From Fulvia fulva (taxonomy: Eukaryota; Ascomycota; Dothideomycetes; Mycosphaerellales; Mycosphaerellaceae): a DNA stretch of 64,000 nucleotides. A program made the translations under genes and the position numbers. The stretch is taken from positions 4,774,001 to 4,838,000 of the forward strand of contig NC_063014.1 of NCBI RefSeq assembly GCF_020509005.1, written 5' to 3'. Within the stretch, counting starts at the first letter, position 1. Every line of letters begins with the position of its first letter. The notes beneath the pieces are model-generated. The model was not told the origin of the DNA. It worked only from the letters and a program-made list of their open reading frames with translations, and did not search any database. Below, in pieces: positions 5,108 to 60,242 of the stretch.

Positions 5108-5198
5108 TATTAAACAGGTATAGTATATATATATACGGAAGTTAGGATACGTAATAGGGAAGGAGGAAGGACTAATATAGTATACGAAGGTATATAGA

Positions 5199-8039
5199 TA
5201 GATAGATATTTCATTAAGCTATTATAGTGCCCTTTGGCCTATATAGCTATACTATCTTGTTTTTGTATATATAGAGGGGAAACCGTGTTAGTAAAAACCC
5301 CTCCTCCTTCCCGCCTGTCTTTTCCTCCTAGTTGTCGTCTTAAATTTCCCTTATTAGGGGTACGCTAGTGTTATAGGCCTGCCCTAATAACTACCCTATC
5401 TACAACCCCCCTCGCTTCCGCCTCTTGTCTATCTACTCCTCCGTCTCGCTAGCGAGGCTAAACTACTAGAGGTATCCCTACTATAGTATCTACCGAGAGA
5501 TTCGGCGAATGTTACCTTTGTCCCTAGAAATTAACTTATAGTCTCTCCTTCCCGCTTAGTGCCTCTAATTTCCCCTGCCTCTCGCCTACTACGGGCATCG
5601 TAGTAGCATATATTCTAGGTTTTACGATAGGTAGCTATACTAGTAGGCTAGGCTATAGATGTCTAGTACGCGTCTCCTAAACAGGTAGGCCCTTAATCTA
5701 ATATATTCGGACCTGATTTGGATCGCTATGCTTGCTTCGGCCCTTATTAGGTCCCTATATAGCTAGTAATTATGTCTCTAGAAGGCTCGGAGCGCTATCG
5801 GGCCTATTGTCTTAGGGGGCTTCCTTTTCTAGTCCTACTCCTATAGGTAGCTCGCTATCTATTCCGCTAGGCTTTAGGTCTTAGCCTTGCTCCCGCCGGC
5901 CTAGCGAGTCCTACGCTCCTCCTCTTTTCGTGCTAGCTATTCGGTGCTTATCTATACGGCCGTAAAGGTAGTAAGGTCATCCTCTTTTTAGCTTGTCCTA
6001 TGTCCGGCCTCTCTCCGGTAGCGGCTTCCTATCTTATTCTTTATCTCCTAGATCGTAGTTTATACTAGGTAACCTATCGTCTTTACCGCGTATTAAATTC
6101 TTATTCCCCGGATATACTAACTAATTAGTAGTGTTCCTATCTCTATTTCTACCGTACTTATTAACATTGTCTTATATACGCCTAGTACCCTACGTAGGTT
6201 ACCTACCTATATCCTATTTAGAGGTTACTCTATCCGTTTCGGGATCGGCTTGCCTACGCCTCCTATTCCCTAAATCTATGCCCCGTATAACATAGCTAGT
6301 CTAACGATCGCCTTTTATATTACTCTTACCTTATTGAATATTACTCCCTATATAGATACCGTAAGCCTCTTTATCGAGGCTTCGTTAACTTACGCTCGAC
6401 TCTAGGCTTTCTTAATCTATATATTCTAGCTTAGCTTCAGGTTAAGCTAGATCCCTAGTACCCGTAGCTCTGCTAATAGCTTAGTCTCGTAGCCTTAGAT
6501 TCTTACCGCCGCCTTTATATTATAGTATGTTCTCGCTTTACTAAAGTGTATAAGTTAGTACTTTTTAGGGGCGAACTAGGCACTATACTTCTTTGCCCAC
6601 TCCTTACATTTCTTATACCTATCTTCGAGGAGGCGACAGTTCTCTTCTATCGAGTCTGACTAGGCTAGGATGTGTATGTCGTCTACGAACCCCGATACTA
6701 AGGTTTGCGGAGAGGTGAGTAGGGGGATTAGATTAGACATAAATATCAGAAACAGGATAGGGGAGAGAGTAGATCCCTAAGGTATTCTAGTCTCTACCTT
6801 TACCGGGTCGGACGTATACCTTCCTAGGACTAGGTATGTCGTCCGTTCCTAGAGAAAGGAGTAGACGAACGTCGTTACCTACTAGGGGATGCCTTTTTAC
6901 TATAGGATATATATTAGCCTTTGGTATAAGACGTTGTCGAAGGCTCCTACGATATCGAGGGTAAGGAAGGAATCGTATTTAGTAAGCTAGCTACGAGATA
7001 AGGTAACAAGTCTTAACCGCGATTTCCTACTTATCTAGTACTACCGTATAGCCTCGTTTCGAGAGGTTAGCCCGGAGCAAAAGCTTCCCTCTACGCCCTC
7101 CCTCCCTGTTTGCTCCTTAAGCCAATATCTACCTCTATAGGCCTAAGCCCTTTAGTGCTCTCTATTAACCGACATGCGTATCCGTCCTCTCGGGCTATAT
7201 AGATAGTATTAGCCGTCGCTACTAGTATATACTACGCCCTAGGTTTTAACGCCCTTCGCGTTACCGTAGCCTATCTCTAGAAAGCGGCCGTCTATACCTC
7301 GTAGGTTTGCTCGGGGCACACACTACGCCGGGTAGCGTACTCCTTACGTTTCTACCTACTAACTAATATAAAGTTCCTTATTACCCTGCCCTCGATCCTC
7401 CCCGATTATAGAACTAATCCACTTGTATTATACGTCTTTTCCCCGTCCTAATAGCCGTCTTTTCCTTGCTTAGGCTATCGTCTTTTCCTCGTCGCAATCT
7501 ACTATATTAGACTAGGTACGTTATGTAGCGGGATAGGTAGTGCCTTAGGCAAAACCCTCGTTCCTATACCGGGTGTTTAATAGGCCCTTATAGGCATCGT
7601 CGCGTGTCTACCTACCCACCGTATTGCCCGCTAGTAAACACTAGATTGTTTCGTAGTCCGCTCGACGCCGTCGTATAGTCCGCTTAGTTGTTGTTCTATA
7701 GTCCGCTCGTCTAATGTTCGTCGCTTAGCCCGCTCGGTTTACGGTCTCCGGAGGTGAAAATTCTACACTTATACTAGAGGTGTCCTATCGAGCGTATAGG
7801 CCACGGTTCCGCGCCCTTCTTATACGTAGAAAGAAGAGGGACTCGCTCCCGATACGAGTACACGCTCGTCGGATAGTTTTTATACCCGTTTTACTAGTAG
7901 TCCTCTATTCGCCGCGGCTTCGCCTACGTTACGCGCCCGTCGCGCCTACGACGCTCTAGCGTAAGAATACTTAGCTCTCTCGTAGTAAGACGAGAGGTTC
8001 GTAGCCGATACTACGTATAGATAATTCTCGTCGTCGACC
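5199..8039 (-). mobile_element. Composite (MINE-like) retrotransposon: 1.08-kb module fused to family B LINE 3' part
   Basis: On the minus strand the element runs from 8039 to 5199. The first 1078 bases (8038-6961) are a module also found at 55471-56547. At 6960 it switches to a family B LINE starting at RT motif A (CCTCGATATCGTAGGAGCC, that is LDIVGA) and continues to the 3' tail at about 5212. The identical 15-bp duplication TACGAAGGTATATAG lies at 5184-5198 and 8040-8054, so both parts arrived in one insertion. The intact family B copy at 22740-39866 has different sequence upstream of motif A, so the module is not simply the normal 5' half of B. Heavily RIP-mutated. Confidence 0.85.
6961..8038 (-). 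repeat. 5' module of composite element (copy 1)
   Basis: This is 1078 bp homologous to 55471-56547 over its whole length, with the same two ends (5' GTCGACGACGAG, 3' CCTTCCTTA). The 5' half is GC-rich and holds an array of GTCCGCTC-type boxes near 7650-7740. The 3' half holds a reading frame described at the other copy; here one Gln codon (CAG) survives where the other copy has TAG. I do not recognise the protein. Confidence 0.8.
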
Positions 8040-8372
8040 TACGAAGGTATATAGTAGAATAGTATTTAGTACTAAAGGTGTCTCTACTATCGGTATAGAG
8101 ACTACGTCTCTTATACCTATATAGAGGGATATTGCTCTAGTCCTAGTTCTGTTTTACTACGCCTTATCGGTTTTACCTATATCTTATCCTACGACGGTAG
8201 TTCCTCCGACAGTCTCGTACTAACTAGCTAAGTAACTTTAGGTCCTCTAAGTCGCTCCTACTATTCGTACGGTATCTTAGTAGTATTACCGTACTATTAT
8301 CTCGACTAGCTTAGTATATACTAAGTTAGTCTTAGTACTATACGATATACCTACTAACCTATATTCGTAACA

Positions 8373-34029: not shown

Positions 34030-34342
34030 TATAGATAGATAGATGATTCATTTACCCGTTGTGGTGCCCTCCGGCCCATGCGGGTTTATGTCTATATATG
34101 TTACTGCATAAGGTAGGAAACCTATTCCTAGGTAAAAACCTCCTCTCCTTCTCTAATAGCTTCCTTGCCATGAGTTCTCAGTTTTCCTTCCATTAGGGTG
34201 CACTAGTGTCATGGTGGTTAGCCTCTGACTACCTTGTCTGCAACCCTAGAGTTGTCCCCCTCTTCCTGCTCTCCTCCTCCTTCTTTCTCTCCTCAATCCA
34301 TCTCTCTGTTTCCCTAGTAAGAGAGAACTGCTCCAAAAATCC

Positions 34343-37300
34343 TTAGTGGATGATCCACCTTGTAATTCTCTGGAGGTCTCCCTTATTGCTGATCATGGCT
34401 TGGAAGTTTCTGTTCCTTGCCCTTGCCCTCCATTCACCTCTCCCTGTACTCCATTCTTTGCAAACCAGAAGTCTATGTTCGACATTCTGGGACAGGTAGC
34501 CGCATGGGCAACTCTTGTCTTCGATACCTGGGACTTTTCTCTGATGCAGGTATGCCCTGACTCCGATGTGTTCAGAGCGGATTTGTATTGCTATGCTTGC
34601 TTCTGACCTGGTCAGGTCTGAATACAGTAGGTAGTTGTGGCTACCAAACTGTTGGAGTGCCTTTGGGGTTCCTGGCCTCTGTGGGGTTCTTGTCCATTCA
34701 GTCTTCCAGAGGAGTCCTGCTATCCTTTCAGCTAGAGACTGTTGCTTCTTCCCTTGGCTGGCTGCTGATCCTCTCCCTTGAGCCCTTCTGTCCTGTTCCT
34801 GCTGGGCTAGGTGCAGCTGTTCTGTTAGTTCTTTGAACTTCTGCAGGTCCTGCTGCTTCTGTGGGGCTGGATTGGGTCTTGCTTGTCTGTGCCTTCTTGT
34901 GCACTGGCTCCTGATTTTGTTGACTGCCTTCTGGATTACTAGCTGGGCTGGGTATGCAGACGTCTTTCCTGCATACTGGTATCTCAACCCTTGAAGGTAG
35001 AGCTTGGCTGGTGGGGAGCCAGACTCCATTTCGACCACCCTTGTTGGAGTTGACTTGTATGCTCCAAGCACCTTTTTCAGACAGGAGGCTTGGGCTCTGC
35101 TGATGGGATCTGCAATTCTCTTTGGGATCTTGTCTTGGGCTGACCAGATCTGGGCTCCATATAGCATGGCTGGCTTCACAATGGCCTTGTACATAACCTT
35201 TTCTTTCGCAAATGTGGCTCCCCACGTAGAGGCTGTAAGCCTGTCAATTGATTGCCTGTTGTTGTCTGCTCTTGCCTGTGCTTTCTTGACCTGTGGTCCC
35301 CAGCTGAGCTTTGGATCCATCCATATTCCTAGCACCCTTAATTCACTTGAGGGTTCTGTTGTGTGTCCCTGAATAGTGATTGGGGCTTGCATATTGTGTC
35401 TGTTTCTGGCTCTACTGAAGTGGATGAGTTGATACTTCTCTGGGGCAAATCTGGCTCCATGTTTCCTGGCCCATTCCTCACATTCCTTGTGTTTCTTCTG
35501 CAAGATTCTGCAGTTCTCTTCTGTGCTGTCTGACCAGGCTAGGATGTTTGTGTCATCTACAAACCCTGAGGCTGATGTGTTTCTGGAGTTTAGCTTTGCT
35601 GGCAGGTCTGCCATAAAGAGGAGAAACAGGATTGGAGACATTGTTGATCCCTGTGGGATTCCTGTCTCTGTAGGCATGCTGTCAGATTTGTATCTGCCCA
35701 GTCTTAGTCTTGTGGTTCTGCCTCTAAGGAAGGACTGGATAAACTGGACTGTCCAGTTAGGGATAGCCTTCTGTTTCAGGATGTGGATCAGCCTCTGGTG
35801 TGAGACATTGTCAAAGGCTCCTGATATGTCTAGTGAGAGGAGTGTGGCTGCTTTGTTGTTCCCAAAGTGCCATAGGGTCTTGATCTGCTCTGTGATAAGT
35901 TCCACAGCTGTTAGTGTTGATCTTTGTTTCCTGCCTCCCATCTGTTCTTCAGGAAGGATTCCATGTTCTTCAGCTAGGTTTGTCAGCCTTTCTGCTATGA
36001 TCTTTTCCAGGAGTTTGCCTAGTGTGTTGAGCAAGGCAATAGGTCTGTATGCCTTTAGCTTTGTGTAGTCCTCTTTCTGTGGTTTTCTCAAGACCACAGT
36101 CAGTGACTCCTTGAAGTGTTTAGGGCAGTGTCCTTGGGCCATGCACTGTGAAAAGATGTTTGACAGTGCAGGGGAGATCTGGTCCTTGCATGTCTTAATG
36201 AACAAGTTTGGAATCCCATCTGGTCCTGGGGCCTTCTTTCCTGAGAGTGTCTTAATGATGCTCTTGATCTCTCCCTCTCCCACTGTGCAGGATTGCTCTA
36301 GTGGTGTTGGATACACACTGCCCTCCAGATCCTGCAGGTCAGCTTCTACCTGTGTGCCAAAGAAATGTTTCCCCAATGCCTGTGCCTTTCCTGGGAGAGT
36401 GTGTTGGATTACTCCTTCCTGGTCTTCGATGTTTGGAAACTGGGGCAGCATGTTTCTGTCCTGTGTGGGTTGTCTTGCCCACTTTGCTAGTTTCCACATC
36501 TTCTCAGGATTCTGGGTAATGGATCCAACTGTTGACCTCCACTCCAGCATCTTGTCCCTCTTGATCTGGGCCTTCTTGTCTCTGGTTGCCTGGTTGTATC
36601 TGTCCCATGCTTCCTGGGAGTGGCTCTGGGTAAGGGCTCTCCTGGCCTGCCTGGCTGCCTTGACCTTCTCTGAGCATTCCTTTGTCCAGAATGGCTTCTG
36701 GTACAGTGACTGTTTCTTTTCTCTGGTGTGGGCTGCCGCAGTTTCCTGCATTGTTCTAACCAGTTCTGCCACTGCTTGGTCTATGTCTAAGGCTGTTTCC
36801 AGTCTCCTGGTCTCTAGTCCAGCTAGCTTCTGTTCCAGGTCTTGTCTGATCTGTTCCCAGTTGGCTGCCTTCCAGGCCAGCTGAGGTTCTAGGTCTCCTT
36901 CCTGCTGTGTCTGTGTTTCAAACTCCACCTGAATTGGGAGGTGATCTGATGAGGACTCCAAGTCCTGGTTAACCCAGCATCTGGTGACCTTCTGCTGTAG
37001 GTCATGTGATGCAAAGCACAGGTCAATGGTGCTTGAGCTTGCTCTCTGTGACCAGGTAGTTAGGCCCTTTGGGGTAACTAGGTGCATGTTGTTGCTTTGG
37101 GTAGTGGAGAGGAGTCTGTTAGCTAGGAAGTGATGGGCAGGTGCAAAGTCTGATCCCTATGTAGGATGGTGCAAGTTGAAGTCTCCCAGCACGATGTGTT
37201 GGGAGTCACTCTGCAAGATGTCTGGCAGCTATTGTAGTGTGCCCAGCTGGGTGCTGCTTCTGGAGCTGGGGGGTGGGTTGTATACACTGTGGATGTGGAT

Positions 37301-37615
37301 GCTGCCTTGGTTGGTGTTGAGTCTGACTGAGGTGATGTCTCCCCCTTCCTGTTGGATTTGTTCCCAGCTGTCTGTTGCCATCTCTTTGCTGATGTACATG
37401 CATGTTCTAGGGGTGCCTTGTTTGGCTAGGAGTGTGTGATACCTTAGGTCGTTAGTAGTAGATGGTCTGTTGGATTTGCTGTTGATCCAAGGTTCCTAGA
37501 CTGCAATGACTAGGTGTTTCTTTAGGTCCAGTGCTTAGAGAAAGCTTCTCTGGACCTTGTGCTGGCTTTTGTTGACATTATACTGGATAGTGGTAAGATT
37601 GGGTGTCTCAATCAT
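34343..37615 (-). pseudogene. M LINE ORF2: endonuclease-reverse transcriptase, four RIP-type nonsense codons
   Basis: Read from the ATG at 37615 this is 1090 codons. Stops fall at codon 27 (37537-37535, TAA), 40 (37498-37496, TAG), 129 (37231-37229, TAG) and 153 (37159-37157, TAG). The first three fit CAA/CAG changes and the last TGG, all CpA-type RIP. Codons 177-1090 are open. The endonuclease shows YNVNKS, a GDFN block and SDHLPI. RT blocks: KKAPGPDGIP, AYRPIALLN, LLSLDISGAFDN (catalytic Asp about 596), GIPQGSTMSPILFLL, GFVDDTNILA (687-688). A C-terminal CPCGYLSQNVEHRLLVC motif (CxCx8Hx4C) ends the protein. No RNase H domain is obvious. An ATG at 37087 could start a protein without endonuclease. 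Confidence 0.88.
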
Positions 37616-38796
37616 GACTCATCTATGCTGGTCTCCTGCTGGTCTTCTCGTGCTTCCTGCTGCTGGCTGCTATTTGGGATTGTGGTAAGGTTGAGCCTGC
37701 TTTGTGACGGGTCTCTTCCTGCAACCACAATTGATTTTGGTCTACCTATGGCAGGGTGGCCTTGGGCCTGTGTGGTCTCTTCTGTTCTGCCTCTTTTTAG
37801 AGGGTTGTAGACAGTCCTTAGGGGTTCTTGGGTGATTGTCCCTGTCTGGAATCTGATAGGGGTGTTGATCCTGGCTTCTCTTGCCCTCCTCTTTGCCTCA
37901 ATCCTAGCTGTGCAGTCTTGGGACCAGGAAGGGTGTTTCTTTCCACAGCATGCACATCTGGCTTCACTCTTTGGGGCTGTGCAATTCTGTACTTTGTGGC
38001 TACCAGCACAGTGGGAACAAGTGTCCTTTTGGCTTGGGCATCTAGTAGAGATATGACCATACTGTTGGCACTTGAAACATTGCAGTAGTCTGTGGGTGCT
38101 TCTATGGATTTCTGTGTCCATTCTTTCGCATTCCCAGAAGATGCCCTTGTCAAGCACGGTGTTTGCCTGTTCTACAATGCCTATCCAGAGCACTAGAGAA
38201 GACTCTCTCTTTGTGTCCTTTGTCTTTCTGTTGACCCATGCTGCTTTTGTGATCTGTAGCCCTGGGCATACAGCCTGGTTCTGGTCCTGCAGCCTCTTAA
38301 GGTCTCCTTCAATGTCAAACTTTGTGGTCATCCCATGGGCAATAACCATATTTTGTTGGTGTGAGACCTTAGCCGTCTTGCCTAGTTTGACTGTCCACTC
38401 CTTCTGTGTCTCTAGCCTCTTCCTGTCTTGCTCCTGTGCTGTGAACAGCTTAAGGACACCTCCCTTCTCTTTCCTGGCTCCAATGATGCCTTGTATCCCA
38501 ATCTTCTGTATGATCTCCTTGCCTGACAGGCCCTCAATCTCTTTCTGCTCTTGCTGGTCGGAAATGTAGACCTTGATAGCTGTTTTCTGGGGGGGAGGGT
38601 TTTGGGATGCAACTGCTGCCCAGGTTGGTTGGCTTAGTTTCTGGCCTTCCTGTGTCCTCTTCTTTGCTGCTGCTGCTACTGTCCTGTTAATGATCTGTCC
38701 TGTTTGGCTCCTTAGTGCCTTTAGCCCTCCAAGGAGCTCCAAAATCATCCCCTTAAGTGCTCTTTCTGGGTGCTCGCCATCTCCTGCCATTGCCAT
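37612..38796 (-). CDS. M LINE ORF1: Gag-like RNA-binding protein, intact
   Basis: This encodes 394 residues. The N-terminal half is charged and helical, followed by an RRM-like region (about 70-230: IKVYISDQQEQ, KEIIQKIGIQ, GGVLKLFTAQ, LVLWIGIVEQANTVLDKGI). Three Cys/His knuckles follow: CFKCQQYGHISTRC (240-253, CX2CX4HX4C), CSHCAGSHKVQNC (260-272) and CACCGKKHPSWSQDC (281-295). The C-terminus is basic, then Gln-rich. Such proteins package the element RNA and assist target-primed reverse transcription. The stop TGA overlaps the ORF2 ATG (ATGA), suggesting reinitiation. No internal stop, so it may still be expressed. Confidence 0.9.
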   Translation of the reverse strand: MAMAGDGEHPERALKGMILELLGGLKALRSQTGQIINRTVAAAAKKRTQEGQKLSQPTWAAVASQNPPPQKTAIKVYISDQQEQKEIEGLSGKEIIQKIGIQGIIGARKEKGGVLKLFTAQEQDRKRLETQKEWTVKLGKTAKVSHQQNMVIAHGMTTKFDIEGDLKRLQDQNQAVCPGLQITKAAWVNRKTKDTKRESSLVLWIGIVEQANTVLDKGIFWECERMDTEIHRSTHRLLQCFKCQQYGHISTRCPSQKDTCSHCAGSHKVQNCTAPKSEARCACCGKKHPSWSQDCTARIEAKRRAREARINTPIRFQTGTITQEPLRTVYNPLKRGRTEETTQAQGHPAIGRPKSIVVAGRDPSQSRLNLTTIPNSSQQQEAREDQQETSIDES

Positions 38797-38866
38797 TGTT
38801 TCTGCCTTCCTGCAGACCTCCTTCCACTCGTTACTCTCCTGCTCCTGGTCGTTTCCTAGTAGGTAT

Positions 38867-39866
38867 AAACTAGGCGTATATAAGACAACGTTAATAAGTA
38901 CGGTAGAAATAGAGATAGGAACACTACTAATTGGTCAGTATATCCGGGGAATAAGAATTCAATACGCGGCAAAGACGATAGGTTACCTAGTATAAACTAC
39001 GATCTAGGAGATAAAGAATAAGATAGGAAGCCGCTACCGGAGAGAGGCCGGACATAGGACAAGCTAAAAAGAGGATGACCTTACTACCTTTACGGCCGTA
39101 TAGATAAGCACCGAATAGCTAGCACGAAAAGAGGAGGAGCGTAGGACTCGCTAGGCCGGCGGGAGCAAGGCTAAGACCTAAAGCCTAGCGGAATAGATAG
39201 CGAGCTACCTATAGGAGTAGGACTAGAAAAGGAAGCCCCCTAAGACAATAGGCCCGATAGTACTCCGAGCTTTCTAGAGACATAATTACTAGCTATATAG
39301 GGACCTAATAAGGGCCGAAGTAAGTATAGCGATCTAAATTAGGTCCGAATATATTAGACTAAGGGCCTACCTATTTAGGAGACGCGTACTAGACATCTAA
39401 AGCCTAGCCTACTAGTATAGCTACCTATCGTAAAACCTAGAACATATACTACTACGATGCCCGTAGTAGGCGAGTAGTAGGGGAAATTAGAGGTACTAAG
39501 CGGGAAGGAGAGACTATAAGTCAATTATTAGGGACAAAGGTCACATTCGCCAAATCGCTCGGTAGATACTATAGTAGGGATACCTCTAGTAGTTTAGCCT
39601 CGCTAGCGAGACGGAGGAGTAGATAGATAAGAGGCGGAAGCTAGTAGGGTTATAGATAGGGTAGTTATTAGGGTAGGCCTATAACACTAGCGTACCCTTA
39701 ATAAGGGAAATCTTAGACGATAACGAGGGGGAAAAGATAGGCGGGAAGGAGGAGGGGTTTTTACTAATACGGTTTCCCCTCTATATATACGAAAACAAGA
39801 TAGTATAGCTATATAGGCTAAAGGGCACTATAATAGCTTGAATCAAATATCTATCTATCTATATAT
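38867..39866 (+). pseudogene. Family B ORF2 C-terminal part and 3' UTR
   Basis: Continues family B after M and is homologous to 5199-6170 of the composite on the other strand. It ends in the 3' UTR with stem GAGGGG/CCCCTC around the conserved TTTTTACT...CGGTTT element and a TATC tail. RIP-mutated. Confidence 0.75.
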
Positions 39867-46984: not shown

Positions 46985-49900
46985 GGCTCATCGATCTCTA
47001 CGCCAAAACAAGACACATTCGAAAGCTCTTATTAAGGCTATTCTAACGATATATAAAGCAGGCCACTGCCCCTAGGACTAAGGGAGTTCTACCTCATTTA
47101 ATCTAGACAGCTTGAAGCTCTCTTCACCCTGTTTCTTTAGCTCTAAACGCCGCGGAGGTGCCTAGCTACATTAGGCAACTCCTAGGTAATAGTAGCCTAG
47201 GCTACGGTACTAACGGCGCCTACGGCCCTATAGGCGAAGCCCCCCTAAGACAACTAGCAGCAACTTATAGAGGACGCAAAAAGTATAGAAACTAACGATC
47301 AGCTCCCTTACCGGTCTCTATAGGTAATGATCACTTAGCTACGCACGGCGCTTATACTGTCGTATTACCGAGGGCAATAAGAAATGAGGACGACGTCCTA
47401 GGCGATTAGCAAGGCCACCCGGAATCAATACCCCTATAGCTAGGTATCGGTCGCGGCATCGATACTAGGCCCCCGCCTAACGCACGATACAGTTACGATC
47501 CGCATTACAGCAAAGGAAGACTAGGCCGAAGTTGCGAAGCTATCGAACAAGGAGCTCGCCTAACGAATCAACCAACTAGGGGTGGTCGTAGTGAACTAAT
47601 AGTCTAACGGCACTCTATAGATCTATACTAGCTCTACTACTGCTAGGAGGCACCTAGAGGCATAGCTATAGTAGGCATCTAAGGTTGCGGTATTAGCGAA
47701 GGTCTTAACGAAACAATTCACGATCCTAGTCTACGATATGCCTAAGGAGTTTGACCTAACCAACTAGGGTCACCTACGCGCTCTCTAAGAGGACAACCCG
47801 GTCACTCTTAACTCTCTAATCTAGAAGGCGACTTGGCTCTATAGGAAATGGCTAGAAGGCAAGAAGGCCTCGGCGCTAATAGTATAGCTATAAGACGCGA
47901 AAGCGGCGGATCTAGCGATAGAACAAGGCCTGGTCTAGTAATATAGCCTTAAGATAGTAGAAAAGCACTCCTTATCCTTTCGTGTCCTCTAATGCTTCAA
48001 ATACTAACAGTATAGACACCAAACCTATACGTATATAAACAAGTAGGCCTACTCGAACTATATAGGAGACTATATGTCTAGGGACTATATATCGACTACG
48101 AGACGGTACGCGAACTATCCGGGGCACTACCTATCGTATAGTGCGGAATGCCTATAGAGGAAACTAGCGAAAAACAAGGCAATTACAAACAGAACCGTCG
48201 CCCTAAGATTCTACGGCGACCGTAAGGCTAGCCTATACCGGAACTAGCTAGCGGCGGTCGGGCATAAGCGCCCTAGGGCCGAGAACGATATAAAGGATGC
48301 GTAACCTAGGGCGTACGGGAGGCCACGTGCTCTGCTAGCTACGGCGAGGGAATCTAACTAGGCCCGGCTCCCCTTTAGTATATAGCCGATAGGCGTAGAC
48401 TAGGACGTATAGGGCAGTAGGATATAGGACGATATAGAGGAAATGATTATCGATGCCGATAACTAGCCTCGACACGCTTAGCATTATCTAGTATAACGTT
48501 AACTATAGCAAGGATATAGTCTAGAACCATTTCCTATACGAGGCGGACCCGCGCGTCTACTACGTCCTTACAATCTAGGAGCTATAGATTAACCCGCACT
48601 ATAAGAGACTAACGACCTACAAGTCACTAGGCTATACGATATACCTACGAGGCGACGGCAGACCCCGTACGTGCTTCTATGTTAGTAAGGACATACTAGA
48701 ATCCGACTAGGAGGTAGTGTACTACGTAGACGAAGAAGGCGGGGGCGATATTACCTCCCTCTACGTAGGTAGCACCTAGATATATAACCTATATATACAA
48801 CCGCTAGCCTCGAGGTCTAGCCGCGACCTAGGGGTCTGTAGACACCTAGACAGTGCGCTTAAGAGACAAGGGTGCTACATCGTAGTAGGAGACTTCAATA
48901 TACACTACCCTTCCTAAGAAAGCCTTATACAGCCGTACCCTATAGCCGACGAAGTACTCGACTTGATAGCGAGTAACGTAATTGCCCTCAATACCCCGAA
49001 GGACCTAGGCACCTAGAAGAGAGGGGGACTCTAAGGCACGATCGACCTCTCCTAGATCTTAGATAGCTACTACTATACGGTAACCTAATATAGGATCGAA
49101 CATAAACTCGAGGCGTCGTTAGACTATATACTAGTCAGGACCTCTATTACGATATAGATATAACGTACACTAGCGGGAACCCCTAAGCTAAACTAGGGAA
49201 AGGCCTACTAGGCTAATATCTAGGCGTACCTCGATGACTCTAAGAGGCTAGTCTAGATCGCGTAGTAGCAATACAATAGTAAAGACGAGATAGACGAAGC
49301 AGTCTAGGGGTTAATAGACGAAATAAGAAAAGCGACCTTACTTTACGTTCCGCTTGCCTAACTAACGACATAGTCTAAACTATACTAGACGCCGGAGTAT
49401 ACTACGGTAGTAAGAGAAGTAAGGAGAGCCCGCCGGGTATAGACGAGCAGCTATAGCGAGGAGGCCTAGAACGTATATAGGGAGGCATGCTAATAGAAGA
49501 AAGCTATAATACGAAGGGAGAAAGCAGTCGGCTAGAGGGCTATAGTAGAAGAAATCGCCGGCAAGCTAGAGAGGATGTAGAAGCTAGCGAAATGGGCCCG
49601 ATAGGACCCTACACAGGGCCCCTCCTTCTCTATCCTAGCGCTACAATCGCCTAGTAGCCCGGTTAGCGACCCCGAGGCTAAGGCGCGTCTACTAGCTAGC
49701 AAGTTCTTCCCGCCCCTAGTCGAGGCTGATCTAAGCGACATAAACAGCTCTACTCCCCTAGCCCCTAGCATCGCGGTCTAATAGGAGGTGTCCGAGGGAG
49801 AAGTTGCCGCTATACTAAGGAAGTTACCGGCGAAGAAAGCCCCGGGGCCGGATAGGATCCCAAACGAGCTACTAAAGAAGTGTAGAGATTAACTAGCCCT

Positions 49901-51944
49901 AGTAGTTATAGCGATCTTTAACGCCTACCTACAGACCGGGTACCACCCGATAGCTTTTAAATAACCGACGACAGTGGTCCTACGTAAGCCGTAGAAGGAA
50001 GACTATACGTAGGTAAAGTCGTACCGCCCAATTGCGCTCCTTAATACTCTTAGGAAGGCGCTTGAGAAGCTAGTTATAACGAGACTCTCCGAGGCGGTAG
50101 AGGAACACTCCCTACTCCCGGACACCTAGATGGGTACGCGCCTATAGCGATCGACGCTATCCGCGATATAACTTATCACCTCTTAGGTAAAGGCTATCTA
50201 GTATAAGAATAGGGACAAGGTGGCTTCCTTACTTAGCCTAGACATATCGGGAGCCTTCGACTACGTGTTATACCCGCGGCTACTCTACATCCTAAGGTCG
50301 AAAGGACTCCCTAAGTAGCTTGTCAACTTCGTACGGTCCTACCTCTAAAACCGTAGTACGTCGATCCTAGTCGGCTAGTATAGAAGCCTATTTCAAGTAG
50401 TCTATACTAGAATCCCGTAAGGCTTAACGCTAGTACCTATTCTATTCCTCTTCTTTATAGCGACGCTACTCCTAGCCCTAGAATCCTAGAACACCGCTGC
50501 GAGCGGCTTCGTAGACGACACAAATATCCTAGCGTAGTCTTCCTCGACTAAGGAGAACTGTAGGCTACTAGAAGAGAAGCACAAGATCTACGAGGACTAG
50601 GCTAGGAGGTACGGGGCTCGGTTTGCCCTAGAAAAGTACAATCTAATATACTTCACGCGCCGGCCACGGTTCTACAATATATAAGCTTCTATCTAGATAT
50701 AGGGGCACACGACTAACCCGGCAAATCAGCTTAGGATCCTCGGACTATAGGTAGACCCGGCGCTACGGTAGAGGAAGTACGTATAGGCAATATTACGGAA
50801 AGCTAAATAGAATATAGCATTATGCCAGAGGCTCACTACGTCTATATAGGGGGCGGACTTCCGGTAGTTATGACTTCTATATACGGCTATTATACGGCCA
50901 GTCCTTACCTATAGTAGCCAAGTGTAGTCCTTAGGCGAGAGGGCCTACCTATCGAAGGGACTCGTCGCGCCGCTAGCGAAGATCTAAAACTAATGCCTAA
51001 GGAAGGTCACCGGGGTATATAAGTCGACACTAACGAGGATACTTAAGTACGAGACCGCTATACCGCCGATCGACCTATATATCTAGGGACTACGGACCTC
51101 CTACTTAGGCAAGTCGGCATAGTACCTAGTATAGAAGGTCATCGCTAGTATAGTCGTAAGGGCCCGCGAATCAGTACTAGCGTATAGGGGCATTCGACCC
51201 GGAAACGAGCCGAACTACCGGGTAAGGGACGAACAGCTAGTAATATAATAGGAAGGTAAGAAATCGTTTATAGAGCAACTATAGAAAGAGAGGTAGAACA
51301 ACTAGGTTATAGGGTATAGTAGACGCCCTTAGCTAGCGGGACAACCTAAGGAATAGTTAGCTACAAAATCCGCGGTTAAGCACCCCCCGAAGCTTATCTA
51401 CTACCGCCTTACGAGGGTATAGAGTAGTATAGCAACCTAACTACGAAGCGAACATATCGGCCTCTAGGGGTACCTATTATAGAGGAAGGTTCTAGGATAC
51501 ACGAATACTAGCTGCCCCTACGGCTATCGCTCCTAGAACGTACGGCACGTACTCCTCGTCCATCCGAGGTGGTCGCTAGGAAGGGGGGAGTGGATAGCAA
51601 AGGCGAGGAACCGGACGATTAGGGCACTTCTTAACAACGCTAAGGACCTACGGCGCATTACGAACTAGATACTAGAGAAGGGCTGGCTAGAACAGTACCG
51701 CCTAGTAGGAACAGTATAGGAAGAGAGGACACGACGTAGCGCGACGAGACCGGCTAGGAGCGGGGGCTAACGGGGTAGTGATATAGACTACGTACGTTTA
51801 GAGGGAAAGCTAAACTAGATAAGGAGTAGTCGGGGGCGGGAAGGGTTTTCACCTATTCGGGTTTCCCTTTGTACATAACAATAGATATATACCTATATAG
51901 GCCGGATAGGGTCCTAGAACAGGGGAATGACAAATCTATCTATC
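46985..51944 (+). mobile_element. Family L LINE, near full length (copy L4), RIP-mutated
   Basis: 4960 bp. The duplication TATTATCTAGCTTA lies at 46971-46984 and 51945-51958. The 5' end GGCTCATCGATCTCTACGCC matches L2 near its 5' end. ORF1 (47095-48460), ORF2 (48457-51700) and 3' UTR are all recognisable. The ORF2 start has lost its ATG (ATGA became ATAA). The RT catalytic block GFVDDTNILA is at about 50506. This copy gives the reference coordinates for the deletion seen in L3 and L5. Confidence 0.88.
48457..51700 (+). pseudogene. Family L ORF2 remnant in L4
   Basis: Endonuclease blocks: TSLDTLSI near 48466, YNVNYSKD, and VVGDFNI near 48890. RT: KLPAKKAPGPDRIPNELLKK at 49822-49880, VVLRKP-KEDYT, LLSLDISGAFDYV near 50236, GI-GLTLVPILFLFF near 50410 and GFVDDTNILA near 50506. 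Stops sit at Gln and Trp positions. Same layout as the intact M ORF2. Confidence 0.75.
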
Positions 51945-51964
51945 TATTATCTAGCTTAAAATAC

Positions 51965-54900
51965 GAGGCATTAAGAGAGTTCTACCTTATTTAATCTAGA
52001 TAGCTTAAAGTTCTCTTCACCCTATTTCTTTAGCTCTAAACGCCGCGGAGGTGCCTAGCTACATTAGGTAACTCCTAGGTAATAGTAGCCTAGGCTACGA
52101 TACTAACGACGCCTACGGCTCTATAGGCGAAGCTCCCCTAAGACAACTAGTAGCAACTTATAGAGGACGTAAAAAGTATAGAAAGGAATGATTAGCTCCT
52201 ATATCGGTCTCTATAGGTAATAATCACTTAGCTACGTACGGCGCTTATACTATCGTATTACCGAGGGTAATAAGAAATAAGGACGACGTCCTAGGCGATT
52301 AATAAGGCCACCCGGAATCAACACCCCTATAGCTAGGCATCGATCGCGGCATCGATACTAGGCCCCCGCCTAACGCACGATATAGTTACGATCCGTATTG
52401 TAGTAAAGAAAGACTAGGCCGAAGTTACGAAGCTATCGAACAAGGAGCTCGCCTAACGAATCAACTAACTAGGGGTAGTCGTAGTGAACTAATAGTCTAA
52501 CGGTACTCTATAGATCTATACTAGCTCTACTACTACTAGGAGGCACCTAGAGGTATAGCTATAGTAGGCATCTAAGGTTACGGCATTAGCGAAGGTCTTA
52601 ACGAAGTAATTTACGATCCTAGTCTACGACATACCTAAGGAGTTCGACCTAACTAACTAAGGTCACCTACGTGCTCTCTAAGAGGATAACCCGGTTACCC
52701 TAAACTCTCTAATCTAGAAGGCGACTTGGCTCTATAGGAAATGGCTAGAAGGTAAGAAGGCCTCGGCGCTAATAGTATAGGTATAAGACGCGAAAGCGGC
52801 GGATCTAGCGATAGAACAAGGCCTGATCTAGTAATATAGCCTTAAGATAGTAGAAAAGCACTCCTTATCCTTTCGTGTCCTCTAATGCTTCAAATGCTAA
52901 CAGTATAGATACTAAACCTATACGTGTATAAATAAGTAGGCCTGCTCGAACTATATAGGAGACTATATATCTAGGGACTATATATCGGCTACGAGACGGT
53001 ATACGAACTGTCCGGGGCACTACCTATCGTATAGCGCGGAATGCCTATAGCGGAAACTAGCGAAAAACAAGGCAATTATAAACAGAACCGTCGCCCTAAG
53101 GTTCTACGGCGACCGCGAGGCTAGCCTATACCGGAACTAGCTAGCGGCGGTCGGGTATAAGCGCCCTAGGGCCGAGAACAATAGAAAGGATACGTAACCT
53201 AGGGCGTACGGGAGGCCACGTACTCTACTAGCTACGGCGAGGGATTCTAACTAGGCCCGGCTCCCCTTTAGTATATAGCCGATAGGCGTAGACTAGGACG
53301 TACAAGGTAGTAGGATATAGGACGCTATAGAGGAAATGATTATCGATGCCTATAACTAGCCTCGACACGCTTAGTATTATCTAGTATAACGTTAACTATA
53401 GTAAGGACATAGTCTAGAACTATTTCCTATACGAGGCGGACCCGTGCGTCTACTACGTCCTAGTAATCTAGGAGCTATAGATTAACCGGTACTATAGGAG
53501 ACTAACGACCTACAAGTTACTAGGCTATACGATATACCTACGAGGCGACGGTAGACCCCGTACGTACTTCTATATTAGTAAGGACATACTAGAATCCGAC
53601 TAGGAGGTAGTGTACTACGTAGACGAAGAAGGCGGGGGTGATATTACCTCCCTCTACGTAGGTAGTACCTAGATACACAACCTATATATATAACCGCTAG
53701 CCTCGAGGTCTAGCCGCGACCTAGGGGTCTATAGAGAAGTATAAGATCTACGAGGACTAGGCTAGGAGGCACGGGGCTCGGTTTGCCCTAGAGAAGTACA
53801 ATCTAATACACTTTATACGCCGGCTACGGTTCTATAATATATAAGCTTCTATCTAGATATAGGGGTATACGACTAACCCGGCAAATTAGCCTAGGATCCT
53901 TAGACTATAGGTAGACCCGGCGCTATAGTAGAGGAAGTACGTATAGGTAATATTACGGAAAGCTAAACAGAATATAGTATTATACTAGAGGCTTACTACG
54001 TCTATATAGGGGGCGGACTTCCGGTAGTTACGACTTCTATATACGGCTATTATACGGCCAGTCCTTACCTATAGTAGCTAAGTATAGTCCTTAGGCGAGA
54101 GGGCCTACCTATCGAAGGGACTCGTCGCGCCGCTAGCGAAGATCCAAAACTAATGCCTAAGGAAGGTTACCGGGGTATATAAGTCGATACTAATAAGGAT
54201 GCTTAAGTACGAGACCGCTATACCGCCGATCGACCTATATATCTAGGGACTACGGACCTCCTACTTAGGCAAGTCGGCATAGTACCTAGTATAGAAGGTT
54301 ATCGCTAGTGTAGTCGTAAGGGCCCGCGAATTAGTACTAGCGTATAAGGGCATTCGACCCGGAAACGAGCCGAACTATCGGGTAAGGTACGAATAGCTAG
54401 TAACGCGATAGGAAGGTAAGAAGTCGTTTATAGAGTAACTATAGAAAGAGAGGTAGAATAACTAGGGTGTAGGGTATAGTAGACGCCCTTAGCTAGCGGG
54501 ACAACCTAAGGAATAGTTAGCTACGAAATCCGCGGTCAAGTACCCCCCGAAGCTCATCTACTACCGCCTTACGAGGGTATAGAGTAGTATAGTAACCTAA
54601 CTACGAAGCGAATACATCGGCCTCTAGGGGTACCTATTATAGAGGAAGGTTCTAGGATATACGAATACTAGCTACCCCTACGGCTATCGCTCCTAGAACG
54701 TACGGTACGTACTCCTCGTCTATCCGAGGTGGTCGCTAGGAAGGGGGGAGTAGATAGTAAAGGCGAGGAACCGGACAATTAGTGCACTTCTTAATAACGC
54801 TAAGGACCTACGGCGTATTACGAACTAGATACTAGAGAAGGGCTAGCTACAACAGTACCGCCTAGTAGGAGTAGTATAGGAAGAGAGGACACGACGTAGC

Positions 54901-55107
54901 GCGACGAGACCGGCTAGGAGCGGGGGCTAACGGGGTAGTAATATAGACTACGTACGTTTAGAGGGAAAGCTAATATAGATAAGGAGTAGTCGGGGGCGGG
55001 AAGGGCTTTTACCTATTCGGGTTTCCCTTTGTATATAATAATAGATATATACCTATATAGGCCGGATAGGGTCCTAGAATAGGGGAATAACAAATCTATC
55101 TATCTAT
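51965..55107 (+). mobile_element. Family L LINE with internal deletion (copy L5)
   Basis: Inserted six bases beyond the L4 duplication, within Copia2; its own duplication is short and imperfect (AAAATAC and ATAATAC). It starts in the 5' part of ORF1. At 53734/53735 it has the same deletion junction as L3 (GTCTATAG joined to AGAAGTATAAG), lacking 1733 bp from the endonuclease through the RT catalytic block. It then runs to the TATC tail. It shares diagnostic variants with L3 in the 3' part. Confidence 0.85.
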
Positions 55108-55469
55108 AATACTAACCCTCTAGGTCAACATTAGCAATCCTTTTTTTAAGAGAAACTAGGTATATCTATATAGATCTAATAGTGAACTCCTTACTTATCT
55201 TAAAGGGTATAAATTGCTTTATAAGCTTATATATATAGGTTAGTAGTACCTAGCTATACTTGTTCTAGAGATACACCTACTTCTTAGTAGCTCTTCTAGA
55301 TTTATATAAGCCCTTAAGCTCAAATTTATCTTCTTCTATAATCCTACTAAGGATACTAAAGTTATATACTACATTGTGTCTTGTCTATATTAGCGTATTA
55401 AGGATCTCTTTAGTTATAGCCTCTTCTTAGAGTTTTAGAGTCTTGCCCTTAATGTTATTAAAAGACACT
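55108..55469 (-). pseudogene. Copia2 internal segment (Gag-Pol upstream part)
   Basis: An AT-rich, CA/TG-containing piece of Copia2 between L5 and the composite. It joins 46984 and 51959-51964 on one side and 59638 on the other when the LINEs are removed. Lys/Leu-rich minus-strand frame, consistent with Gag; no motif is certain. Confidence 0.55.
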
Positions 55470-55470
55470 A

Positions 55471-56547
55471 GTCGACGACGAGAATCACCTATACGTAGTG
55501 TCGGCTACGAACCTCTCGTCTAGCTACGAGAGAGCTAAGTATTCACACGCTAGAGCGTCGTAGGCGCGACGGGCGCGTAACGTAGGCGAAGCCGCGGCGA
55601 ATAGAGGACTACTAGTATAACGGGTATAAAAACTATCCGACGAGCGTATACTCGTATCGGGAGCGAGTCCCTCTTCTTTCTACGTATAAGAAGGGCGCGG
55701 AACCGTGGCCTATATACTCGATAGGACACCTCTAGTATAAGTATAGAATTTTTACCTCCGGAGACCGTAAACCGAGCGGGCCGAGCGACGAATATTAGAC
55801 GAGCAGACTATAGAACAACAACTAAGCGGACTATACGACGGCCTCGAGCGGACTACGAAACAATCTAGTGTTTGCTAGCGGGTAATACGGAGGGTAGGTA
55901 GACACGCGACGAAGTCTATAAGGGCCTATTAAGTACCCGGTATAAGAACGAGGGTTTTGCCTAAGGTACTACCTATTCCGCTATATAACGTACCTAGTCT
56001 AATATAGTAGATTACGACGAGGAAAAGACGATAGCCTAAGTAAGAAAAAGACGGCTATTAGGACGGGGAAAAGACGTATAATACAAGTGGATTAGTTCTA
56101 TAATCGGGGAGGATCGAGGGTAGGGTAATAAGGAACTTTATATTAGTTAGTAGGTAGGAACGTAAGGAGTACGCTACCCGGCGTAGTGTGTGCCCCGAGC
56201 AAACCTACGAGGTATAGACGGCCGCTTTCTAGAGATAGGCTACGGTAACGCGAAGGGCGTCAAAACCTAGGGCGTAGTATATACTAGTAGCGATGGCTAA
56301 CACTATCTATATAGCCCGAGAGGACGGATACGTATATCGGTCAATAGAGAGTACTAAAGGGCTTAGGCCTATAGAGGTGGATATTGGCTTAAGGAGTAAA
56401 TAGGGAGGGAGGGCGTAGAGGGAAGCTTTTACTCCGGGCTAACCTCTCGAAACGAGGCTATACGGTAGTACTAGATAAGTAGGAAAGCGCGGTTAAGACT
56501 TGTTACCTTATCTCGTAGCTAGCTTACTAAATACGATTCCTTCCTTA
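55471..56547 (+). repeat. 5' module of composite element (copy 2), with RIP-broken reading frame
   Basis: The 5' half (55471-55880) is GC-rich and probably non-coding. From about 55905 one plus-strand frame runs to the module end, interrupted only by TAA/TAG: RYKNEGFA, then VRKRRLLGRGKDV and YKWISSIIGEDRG, then LRGIDGRFLEIGYGNAKGVK and YLYSPRGRIRISVNREY, then GLTSRNEAIR. At one of these stops copy 1 still has CAG, so the stop arose by RIP and the frame was once open for about 210 codons. I do not recognise the protein. Confidence 0.7.
55771..55857 (+). promoter_or_regulatory. Array of CGAGCGG boxes in the composite module
   Basis: CCGAGCGGGCCGAGCG at 55772-55787 is followed by CGAGCAGACTA, AAGCGGACTA and CGAGCGGACTA at about 22-23-base steps (55800, 55823, 55845). 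The same array is in copy 1 at 7640-7740. Regular spacing suggests repeated binding sites in the 5' leader or promoter; this role is inference. Confidence 0.45.
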
Positions 56548-59500
56548 TTAAGAGACAAGGGTGCTATATCGTAGTAGGAGACTTCAATATATACTACCCT
56601 TCCTAGGAAAGCCTTATATAGCCGCACCCTATAGCCGACGAAGTACTCGACTTGATAGCGAGTAACGTAATTGCCCTTAATACCCCGAAGGACCTAGGCA
56701 CCTAGAAGAGAGGGGGACTCTAAGGCACGATCGACCTCTCCTAGATCTTAGATAGCTACTACTATACGGTAACCTACTATAGGATCGAATATAAACTCGA
56801 GGCGTCGTTAGACTATATACTAGTTAGGACCTCTATTACGATATAGATATAACGTAGACTAGCGAGAACCCCTAAGCTAAACTAGGGAAAGGCCTACTAG
56901 GCTAACATCTAGGCGTACCTCGATAACTCTAAGAGGCTAGTCTAGATCGCGTAGTAGCAATACAATAGTAAAGACGAGATAGACGAAGCAGTCTAGGGGT
57001 TAATAGACGAAATAAGAAAAGCGACCTTACTTTACGTTCCGCTTACCTAACTAACGATATAGTCTAAACTATACTAGACGCCGGAGTACACTACGGTAGT
57101 AAGAGAAGTAAGGAGAGCCCGCCGGGTATAGACGAGCAGCTATAGCGAGGAGGCCTAGAACGTATATAGGGAGGCATACTAATAGAAGAAAGCTATAATA
57201 CGAAGGGAGAAAGTAGTCGGCTAGAGGGCTATAGTAGAAGAAATCGCCGGCAAGCTAGAGAGGATATAGAAGCTAGCGAAATGGGCCCGATAGGACCCTA
57301 TATAGGGCCCCTCCTTCTCTATCCTAGCGCTATAATCGCCTAGTAGCCCGGTTAGCGACCCCGAGGCCAAGGCGCGTCTACTAGCTAGCAAGTTCTTCCC
57401 GCCCCTAGTCGAGGCTGATCTAAGCGACATAAACAGCTCTACTCCCCTAGCCCCTAGTATCGCGGTCTAATAGGAGGTGTCCGAGGGAGAAGTTGCCGCT
57501 ATACTAAGGAAGTTGCCGGCGAAGAAAGCCCCGGGGCCGGATAGGATCCTAAACGAGCTACTAAAGAAGTATAGAGATTAACTAGCCCTAGTAGTTATAG
57601 CGATCTTTAACGCCTACCTATAGACCGGATACCACCCGATAGCTTTTAAACAATCGACGACAGTGGTCCTACGCAAGCCGTAGAAGGAAGACTATACGTA
57701 GGTAAAGTCGTACCGCCTAATTACGCTCCTTAACACTCTTAGGAAGGCGCTTAAGAAGCTAGTTATAACGAGACTCTCCGAGGCGGTAGAGGAACACTCC
57801 CTACTCCCGGACACCTAGATAGGTACGCGCCTATAGCGATCGACGCTATCCGCGATAGAACTTATCACCTCTTAGGTAAAGGCCATCTAGTATAAGAATA
57901 GGGACAAGGTGGCTTCCTTACTTAGCCTAGACATATCGGGAGCCTTTGACTACGTATTATACCCGCGGCTACTCTATATCCTAAGGTCGAAAGGACTCCC
58001 TAAGTAGCTTATTAACTTCGTACGGTCCTACCTCTAAAACCGTAGTACGTCGATCCTAGTCGGCTAGTATAGAAGCCTATTTCAAGTAGTCTATACTAGA
58101 ATCCCGTAAGGCTTAACGCTAGTACCTATTCTGTTCCTCTTCTTTATAGCGACGCTACTCCTAGCCCTAGAATCCCAGAACACCGCTACGAGCGGCTTCG
58201 TAGACGACATAAACATCCTAGCGTAGTCTTCCTCGACTAAGGAGAACTATAGGCTACTAGAAGAGAAGCACAAGATCTACGAGGACTAGGCTAGGAGGCA
58301 CGGGGCTCGGTTTGCCCTAGAAAAGTACAATCTAATACACTTTACGCGCCGGCCACGGTTCTACAATATATAAGCTTCTATCTAGATATAGAGGCATACG
58401 ACTAACCCGGCAAATTAGCTTAGGATCCTCGGACTATAGGTAGACCCGGCGCTACGGTAGAGGAAGCACGTATAGGCAATATTACGGAAAGCTAAACAGA
58501 ATATAGGATTATACTAGAGGCTCACTACGTCTATATAGGGGGCGGACTTCCGGTAGTCACGACTTCTATATACGGCTATTATACGGCTAGTCCTTACCTA
58601 TAGTAGCTAAGTATAGTCCTTAGGCGAGAGGGCCTACCTATCGAAGGGACTCGTCGCGCCGTTAGCGAAGATCTAAAACTAATGCCTAAGGAAGGTCACC
58701 GGGGTATATAAGTCGATACTAACGAGGATACTTAAGTACGAGACCGCTATACCGCCGATCGACCTATATATCTAGGGACTACGGACCTCCTACTTAGGCA
58801 AGTCGGCATAGTACCTAGTATAGAAGGTCATCGCTAGTATAGTCGTAAGGGCCCGCGAATTAGTACTAGCGTATAGGGGCATTCGACCCGGAAACGAGCC
58901 GAACTACCGGGTAAGGGACGAATAGCTAGTAATATAATAGGAAGGTAAGAAATCGTTTGTAGAGTAACTATAGAAAGAGAGGTAGAACAACTAGGTTATA
59001 GGGTATAGTAGACGCCCTTAGCTAGCGGGACAACCTAAGGAATAGTTAGCTACAAAATCCGCGGTCAAGTACCCCCCGAAGCTTATCTACTACCGCCTTA
59101 CGAGGGTATAGAGTAGTATAGTAACCTAACTACGAAGCGAATATATCGGCCTCTAGGGGTACCTATTATAGAGGAAGGTTCTAGGATATACGACTACTAG
59201 CTACCCCTACGGCCATTACTCCTAGAACGTACGGTACGTACTCCTCGTCTATCCGAGGTGGTCGCTAGGAAGGGGGGAGTAGATAGTAAAGGCGAGGAAC
59301 CGGACGATTAGGGCACTTCTTAATAACGCTAAGGACCTACGGCGCATTACGAACTAGATACTAGAGAAGGGCTGGCTAGAATAGTACCGCCTAGTAGGAG
59401 TAGTATAGGAAGAGAGGACACGACGTAGCGCGACGAGACCGGCTAGGAGCGGGGGCTAACGGGGTAGTGACATAGACTACGTACGTTCAGAGGGAAAGCT

Positions 59501-59637
59501 AATCTAGATAAGGAGAAGTTAGGGGCGGGAAGGGTTTTCACCTATTCGGGTTTCCCTTTATATATAACAATAGATATATACCTATATAGGCCGGATAGGG
59601 TCCTAGAACAGGGGAATAAGAAATCTATCTATCTATC
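56548..59637 (+). pseudogene. Family L ORF2 remnant inside the composite
   Basis: Starts mid-endonuclease with KRQGCYIVVGDFNI and keeps all RT blocks: KLPAKKAPGPDRI near 57510, LLSLDISGAFDYV near 57925, GFVDDINILA near 58190. It then runs through the C-terminal region and 3' UTR. RIP-type stops throughout. Unlike L3 and L5 it has no internal deletion. Confidence 0.75.
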
Positions 59638-60242
59638 TATTAAAAGACACTTCTATTAGGTTATTAATTGCAAAGGATGCTAATTAGATCTCTATCTTAT
59701 ATCTCTAAAGGTTGAACTATCTCTTCTAATTGTCCCTCCTAAGAATTAGGATTTCGCCTCCCTTCTCCTCTATCTTCTCTTAGTATAAATCTATAATAGA
59801 TTAGATGTAATGAAACAAGGTGTATATATTCTAAAGTGGTGGCTTACATCCTACTAAGGCTTCTAGTATAGAATAGGAAAGTTCGTAGGTATAGATACTA
59901 AGGCCTACTTAGTAAAGTAAAGAAGGAGCGGTATAAGGTCTCGAGGCTAGGACATAGGTCTGTCTCTCCTAGTAGAGCTTTAAATGACTTACTTAAAGTC
60001 CTTCTTAATAGTATCTCGATATAGTTCTGCCTATAGAGTATCTTTAAGGTATTAGCTTTAAGTAAGCCGTATAGAGTCCTTATCTAGGTTACCTATTACT
60101 TAGTATCGAACTAAGCTCCTTAATAGGATAGACGGGGTAGACTTCTGATTCCTAGATATTTTCTACTACAATAGTAAGGGATGTAAGTAACCTATACTAA
60201 TATAGGTTGCTCTTATTCCTACATAAACTCGGGCTTATAACC
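59638..60242 (-). pseudogene. Copia2 5' internal segment (leader and Gag start)
   Basis: AT-rich Copia2 sequence between the composite and the 5' LTR. It includes the primer-binding site next to the LTR. Gag coding is probable on the minus strand from about 60170 but broken by stops. Confidence 0.55.
60230..60242 (-). promoter_or_regulatory. Copia2 primer-binding site (half-tRNA type)
   Basis: The plus strand reads CGGGCTTATAACC directly next to the LTR terminus, the same as the Copia1 site at 5095-5107. It matches the initiator tRNA-Met anticodon arm (CGGGCTCATAACC) except for one RIP-type change. Confidence 0.7.

Follow-up and report, generated by a model that had tools for sequence, protein, structure and literature searches.

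The closest described system is that of the MINE elements of Magnaporthe grisea, in which a 1,113-nt module called WEIRD, for which neither solo copies nor relatives had then been found, is joined to truncated MGL LINEs; the available text of that study describes 33 chimeras, mainly MGL plus Mg-SINE, with one tripartite case, gives the junction consensus as GCC before the site and A/U after it, and models the joining as template switching by reverse transcriptase (RT) (PMC2104539). By our own count of its Table 3, in the form available, 15 of 18 rows have the trinucleotide R-Y-C immediately ahead of the site (PMC2104539). For the chimeras of U6 and L1, the accessible portion of a second account proposes either RNA ligation or template switching (PMC13174262). 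A search of the literature outside subscription journals found no other MINE-like fungal system. Moldovan et al. 2019 is cited by the paper on U6/L1 chimeras.

The window analysed here, a 64,000-nucleotide stretch of Fulvia fulva DNA, contains two composites of MINE type, a likeness that had already been proposed from the sequence alone, and many more are present in the host genome. They consist of a full-length, non-coding 5′ part of about 1.1 kb followed by a truncated LINE in sense orientation (45 of 46 young cases), within duplications of 13–19 bp (13 of 16 composites whose LINE 3′ end is in reach). So far as MINE is described in the available text, the two systems agree in the size and non-coding nature of the 5′ module (1,078 nt here), the sense, 5′-truncated LINE, the duplications, the recurrent junctions and the occurrence of tripartite copies (PMC2104539); the likeness of WEIRD to our module is one of published description rather than of sequence letters. 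At the junction, the R-Y-C of MINE would coincide with the rule found here (R-Y/C-Y, the stroke marking the junction) if one base were counted to the other side, but the next base is A/U there and a pyrimidine here. The systems also differ in scale, as our count of module ends reaches at least 553 and no fewer than four LINE families are partners; in addition, these families have a hot spot in common at RT motif A, and ordinary truncations served as a control for the rule. The U6/L1 chimeras, as far as the accessible account goes, likewise have a full-length non-coding RNA on the 5′ side, in sense, a 5′-truncated LINE and duplications (PMC13174262), whereas the module here has no Rfam family, a single RNA dominates, and the junction rule is strict. 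SINEs too are non-autonomous RNAs moved by LINE enzymes, but our module lies on the 5′ side and does not end in a LINE tail, the LINE part supplying the 3′ end; SINE-type 3′ mimicry was not found, as the 3′ end of the module joins the interior of the LINE.

Composite insertions in the window

Table 1. Positions of the composites and of related LINE copies in the window.
Feature	Position	Strand	Remarks
5′ target-site duplication, composite 1	55456..55469		TATTAAAAGACACT
Module, composite 1	55470..56547	+	1,078 nt counting the first G (A in this copy); 3′ end CCTTCCTTA, unmutated CCTTCCTTG
5′-shortened LINE family L, composite 1	56548..59637	+	ORF2 endonuclease part to (TATC)n tail; junction at native position 48859
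3′ target-site duplication, composite 1	59638..59651		
5′ target-site duplication, composite 2	8040..8054		CTATATACCTTCGTA on the minus strand
Second module copy, composite 2	6962..8039	-	95.7% identity to the first copy
5′-shortened LINE family M, composite 2	5198..6961	-	Joined at RT motif A, native site 30845
3′ target-site duplication, composite 2	5183..5197		
Long family L copy without module	46988..51954	+	Served as native reference
Young LINE family K	34034..38868	-	ORF1 with zinc knuckle, ORF2 with reverse transcriptase; at other places in the genome this family is the third partner

The sequence TATTAAAAGACACT is present at just two places in the window, 55456 and 59638, and brackets the unit 55470–59637. 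The sequence-only reading had recognised both this duplication and the direct change from module to family L endonuclease sequence at 56548, and both hold, since the LINE begins precisely there. It had placed the start of the module at 55471, one base inside the real start, which is a G mutated to A in this copy, while its 3′ end at 56547 was right. It had also seen the module recur on another LINE family at RT motif A; this stands (the family is M, joined at the codons LDISGAF, which we take to be motif A, and the composite has a 15-bp duplication of its own), except that this copy too has one more 5′ base and so begins at 8039. Positions 55471–56547 and 8038–6962 (minus strand) align without gaps over 1077 bp. 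Each composite is a single insertion, with duplications of 14 bp and 15 bp respectively.

Several other features of the window deserve mention. Two family L copies, at 51972–55107 and 31117–33500, have a common internal deletion from native position 48842 to 50573, whose join shows a few bases of homology and is not a GT-AG intron; it seems that a deletion derivative has moved. The young family K LINE sits inside an old family M copy, and a gene for a DUF4185-like protein (9798–11068, minus strand) lies in an unmutated gene island at approximately 9–20 kb. Among named matches, a host protein encoded in the window is nearest to Zasmidium cellare (62–63%), followed by other Mycosphaerellaceae-like fungi such as Cercospora and Septoria (about 50%), besides one hit at 98%; the host is thus probably of Mycosphaerellales type.

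The module and its copies in the genome

The module is a non-coding sequence with fixed ends, GGTCGAC at the 5′ end and CCTTCCTTG at the 3′ end, in which the final TTG is often changed to TTA by RIP-like mutation; we use L061:172-1249 as its young reference form. Searching the host genome (67.17 Mb in 14 contigs) for its last 18 bases gives 285 exact matches ending in TTA and 268 ending in TTG, and thus at least 553 exact 3′ ends, a number that is not due to chance because the reversed control gives none. A weakly mutated internal 34-mer is found at 146 places within 2 mismatches and the 5′-end pattern at 117 places within 3 mismatches; at all 100 places listed of these 117 GGTCGAC follows unrelated bases, the pattern itself requiring the GG. 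Of 658 candidates in our first genome search, 40 were scored and all of these run end to end (1-1076 or 1-1077), and all 30 loci of that search match at full length; among 30 loci picked by the 3′ end, seven carry 5′-shortened modules. As for the additional 5′ base, a single base separates the duplication from GTCGAC in all seven duplications around RIP-mutated copies, and the first base of the module is a G in 44 of 52 records and an A in the other 8, every A being in a TpA context.

In the old copies CpA and TpG are underrepresented and TpA is abundant, and 5358 of 6029 differences from the young L061 are of the CpA-to-TpA type (66 aligned pieces, a few pieces of one locus being double). The mutation of old copies is therefore RIP-like, which accounts for the two forms of the 3′ end, and because RIP preserves purine/pyrimidine class, the junction rule described further on is as legible in old copies as in young ones. 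We note also that module-bearing units are regularly spaced in three places, at 3,318, 11,196 and 1,350 bp (C2:2705824-2719096, C10:2912951-2936419 and L048), and these are probably tandem duplications.

The origin of the module was sought in several ways. It is ten times as long as U6, and matches no Rfam family even without the gathering cut-off (E up to 5 and 10), the only match being a chance hit at E 2.5, far below its cut-off. A protein-coding role was considered and rejected, as the longest open reading frame is 78 aa and that frame has no protein relatives. The predicted fold of the first 1,000 nt is no more stable than those of shuffled sequences (z +1.66), the telomerase template CTAACCC and a pol III B box are absent from the module, and the A box has four loose matches. 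A search of the genome for a source gene found none. Among 52 near-full old copies, 11 diagnostic non-RIP sites trace a succession of variants, and the four-gamete test fails for 32 of 55 pairs of sites, which argues either that the source lineage recombined or that there were several sources.

LINE partners and the junction rule

In tblastn searches with the old records, ORF1 or ORF2 of a LINE adjoins most modules in sense orientation, and the breakpoints range from ORF1 as far as the C-terminal portion of ORF2. No ORF hit was obtained for L004, L015, L036, L052 and three short or overlapping records, of which L015 and L052 map within the 5′ portion of family L; the partner in L017 and L026 is a further LINE family whose DNA is about 70% like K and L. 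The young sample comprises 46 weakly mutated junctions, 45 from places found by the internal 34-mer or TTG-end searches (40 of 60 selected, and 5 more) together with L061. Here 44 modules lead directly into a LINE, one does so via a 37-nt leader (L115), and one leads into a second module (L118); the best-match partners are L (16), M (17), K or K-related (12) and module (1), the count for K including L080, L086, L098 and L112, which are only related to K. Family K has an ORF1 with a CCHC knuckle and an ORF2 with endonuclease and reverse transcriptase by Pfam, such that the LINE partners, as tested on this family, have Tad-like ORF features, and its 5′ and 3′ ends are present 160 and 162 times within 1 mismatch. 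The expectation that the genome would show constant module ends with varying LINE partners and breakpoints is thus borne out, the cuts lying anywhere between the 5′ region and the end of ORF2. Capture was proposed to involve two LINE families; it is indeed recurrent, but at least four take part.

Duplications were also predicted around further composites, and where the LINE 3′ end is in reach they are found. Among nine such RIP-mutated composites, seven have duplications of 13–19 bp, and the exceptions are L022 and the 5′-shortened L034. Young composites with the junction M30377 have 13–15 bp duplications ending exactly at GGTCGAC in six of seven cases; none was found on searching L071/L072, and an eighth copy, on C11, was left out because a second module lies upstream. 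In total, 13 of 16 composites are enclosed as whole chimeras. That LINE insertions have captured one RNA end again and again is, on this sequence evidence, well supported.

Two further arrangements were seen. In L115 (C3:386243-386388) a leader of 37 nt separates the module from a near full-length K element, and because most of these leader bases recur before other full-length K copies, the K RNA probably starts further upstream. Tripartite module-module-LINE copies are found in L051 (442-2225), in L118 and, to judge from coordinates, on C11 near 2169490, their inner modules being 5′-shortened at differing places.

Junctions at RT motif A are found in M (8 old loci and 3 young), L (3 old and 3 young), K (L116) and a further family (L031), all within about 3 bases of the same codon; three more K composites (C1 and C3) are placed there by distance alone, with a hand count for C3. 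The site M30845 carries module haplotypes with either A or T at column 52, as does site 30069, which points to repeated joining at one site. Using exact-match markers and a module end within 6.5 kb, we find a module upstream on the same strand at 19 of 38 young M 3′ ends on C1 and C2, and at 7 of 38 young K 3′ ends. Of the 50 exact K ends tallied by hand on C1-C3, 33 belong to full-length elements, 10 go with a module, 5 are solo truncations and 2 could not be assigned. Comparison of 900-nt pieces of young M shows 13 of 18 comparable ones to be identical, and since this identical sequence carries junctions at 2208, 2242, 2825, 3365 and 3368, or none listed, a single burst gave rise to many junctions; given the uniform M sequence, some same-junction young composites may have been copied from each other.

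The junctions conform closely to a rule. In the old set (45 records from 44 loci, L048/L049 overlapping) there are 32 distinct native sites, 29 of which read R-Y/Y, against a background of 10.6%; the 45 young records with a native match define 38 distinct sites, 36 of them R-Y/Y. Pooling by a purine-pyrimidine key, with L081 left out because its reference was itself a module copy, gives 54 distinct native sites, of which 49 are R-Y/Y and all 54 are Y/Y. The base at −2 is A in 34, G in 15 and T in 5; at −1, C in 42 and T in 12; at +1, C in 48 and T in 6; and at +2, C in 33, T in 15, and A and G in 3 each (48 pyrimidines). No other position from −22 to +24 approaches the R-Y/Y constraint. Ordinary 5′ truncations are quite different: R-Y/Y is present in none of five solo family K truncations (four with visible duplications, L154 with none), in both solo family L truncations of the window (31117, with an 11-bp duplication, and 51972, with none seen) and in one of seven shortened modules, or 3 of 14 versus 49 of 54 (Fisher p 8e-7, with a small control set). 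Short solo truncations of family M were also sought, and none of 13 candidates was truncated. The rule speaks against plain fall-off of the reverse transcriptase. Similarity of the module 3′ end to the LINE upstream of junctions is weak (p 0.09 and 0.055), and hairpins, local folding and module-LINE pairing at 10 sites are the same as at control sites.

How the chimeras may arise

The reading we favor, and regard as quite probable, is that these are MINE-type chimeras in which one RNA with fixed ends has been joined many separate times to at least four families of shortened LINEs. A module RNA of 1,078 nt, with a fixed 5′ GG and 3′ UUG, would be joined in sense by its exact 3′ end to a 5′-shortened LINE RNA or its cDNA, after which the LINE machinery would insert the chimera at one target site, generating the duplication of 13–19 bp; one young and two old composites without a duplication stand against this explanation, as do the fruitless search for a source gene and the lack of a folding or pairing signal at 10 sites. 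Fixed ends, varied breakpoints, duplications, reuse of sites by different haplotypes and R-Y/Y with C at +1 are demonstrated at the level of sequence. For the enzymatic step, a cut in the LINE RNA between two pyrimidines may create a 5′ end to which the module is then attached, either through ligation or because the reverse transcriptase jumps end to end, and we would give this an even chance. A cut RNA end is favored because the rule binds two bases that are absent from the product and is missing at ordinary truncations; against it, solo truncated LINEs start at R-Y/Y in only two of seven cases, and more would be expected were cut RNA a common template.

The principal competitor, which we place somewhat short of even, is that the reverse transcriptase, engaged in target-primed reverse transcription, pauses within an intact LINE RNA and from there jumps to the module RNA at its 3′ end. 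Template switching is the published model for MINE (PMC2104539) and one of the two for U6/L1 chimeras (PMC13174262), in each case as given in the available text; successive jumps would fit the tripartite copies L051 and L118, and the C at +1 in 48 of 54 sites might reflect a one-base pairing requirement. However, the low frequency of R-Y/Y at ordinary truncations shows that the enzyme does not obey it wherever it stops, constraint on the −2 and −1 bases is as strong as on those that are copied, and there is no hairpin or pairing signal at the 10 sites. Template switching, which the sequence-only reading took to be the joining step, is plausible, but the R-Y/Y rule, missing as it is at ordinary truncations, also fits RNA cleavage and joining before reverse transcription. 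A different view would have a few founder composites form once and then spread as non-autonomous families of their own. Junctions do recur (M30377 in 8 exact young copies, M30845 at 8 old and 3 young loci), 5′-shortened modules exist, and same-junction young M copies are identical over 900 nt; but the 32 distinct sites in 45 old records and 38 in 45 young, the presence of both module haplotypes at the same old sites, and equally identical M sequence with other junctions make this distinctly unlikely.

The position of the module, 5′ of LINEs and in sense, could also suggest that it is simply the normal 5′ region of one LINE family, the outcome that would have overturned the chimera reading. It was not seen in the host genome, and with junctions spread throughout three reference families and full-length family K beginning with a 5′ end of its own, it is almost certainly wrong. 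Spliceosomal trans-splicing, discussed for L1-mRNA chimeras in the accessible account (PMC13174262), and DNA recombination are both very improbable as the joining process: the acceptor side has A/G then C/T before the cut, with G at −1 in 0 of 54 sites, and so is not an AG splice site, and recombination would not give the duplication of the whole unit seen in 13 of 16 composites. Group I reverse splicing was raised because the module ends in G and dropped because −1 is mostly C.

Returning to the joining of one RNA to many LINEs, we can envisage a bolder version, which we consider doubtful: the module would be a new retro-parasite that attaches to the 5′ ends of cut LINE RNAs of any family, at R-Y/C-Y, by sequence-guided RNA joining, its own sequence fixing the 3′ end of its RNA, and this device, in common with WEIRD, would predate the divergence of the two fungal classes.

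As a rule, LINE-RNA chimeras are rare relics, whereas here they make up half of the young family M insertions on two contigs; many are unmutated, and the places where they join follow a measurable rule from which ordinary truncations depart. Whether template switching or RNA ligation is at work, a matter of dispute, could thus be put to the test in one organism. If the R-Y-C rule common to this fungus and Magnaporthe reflects common descent, then a single partnership of RNA and LINE would have persisted across distant fungi.
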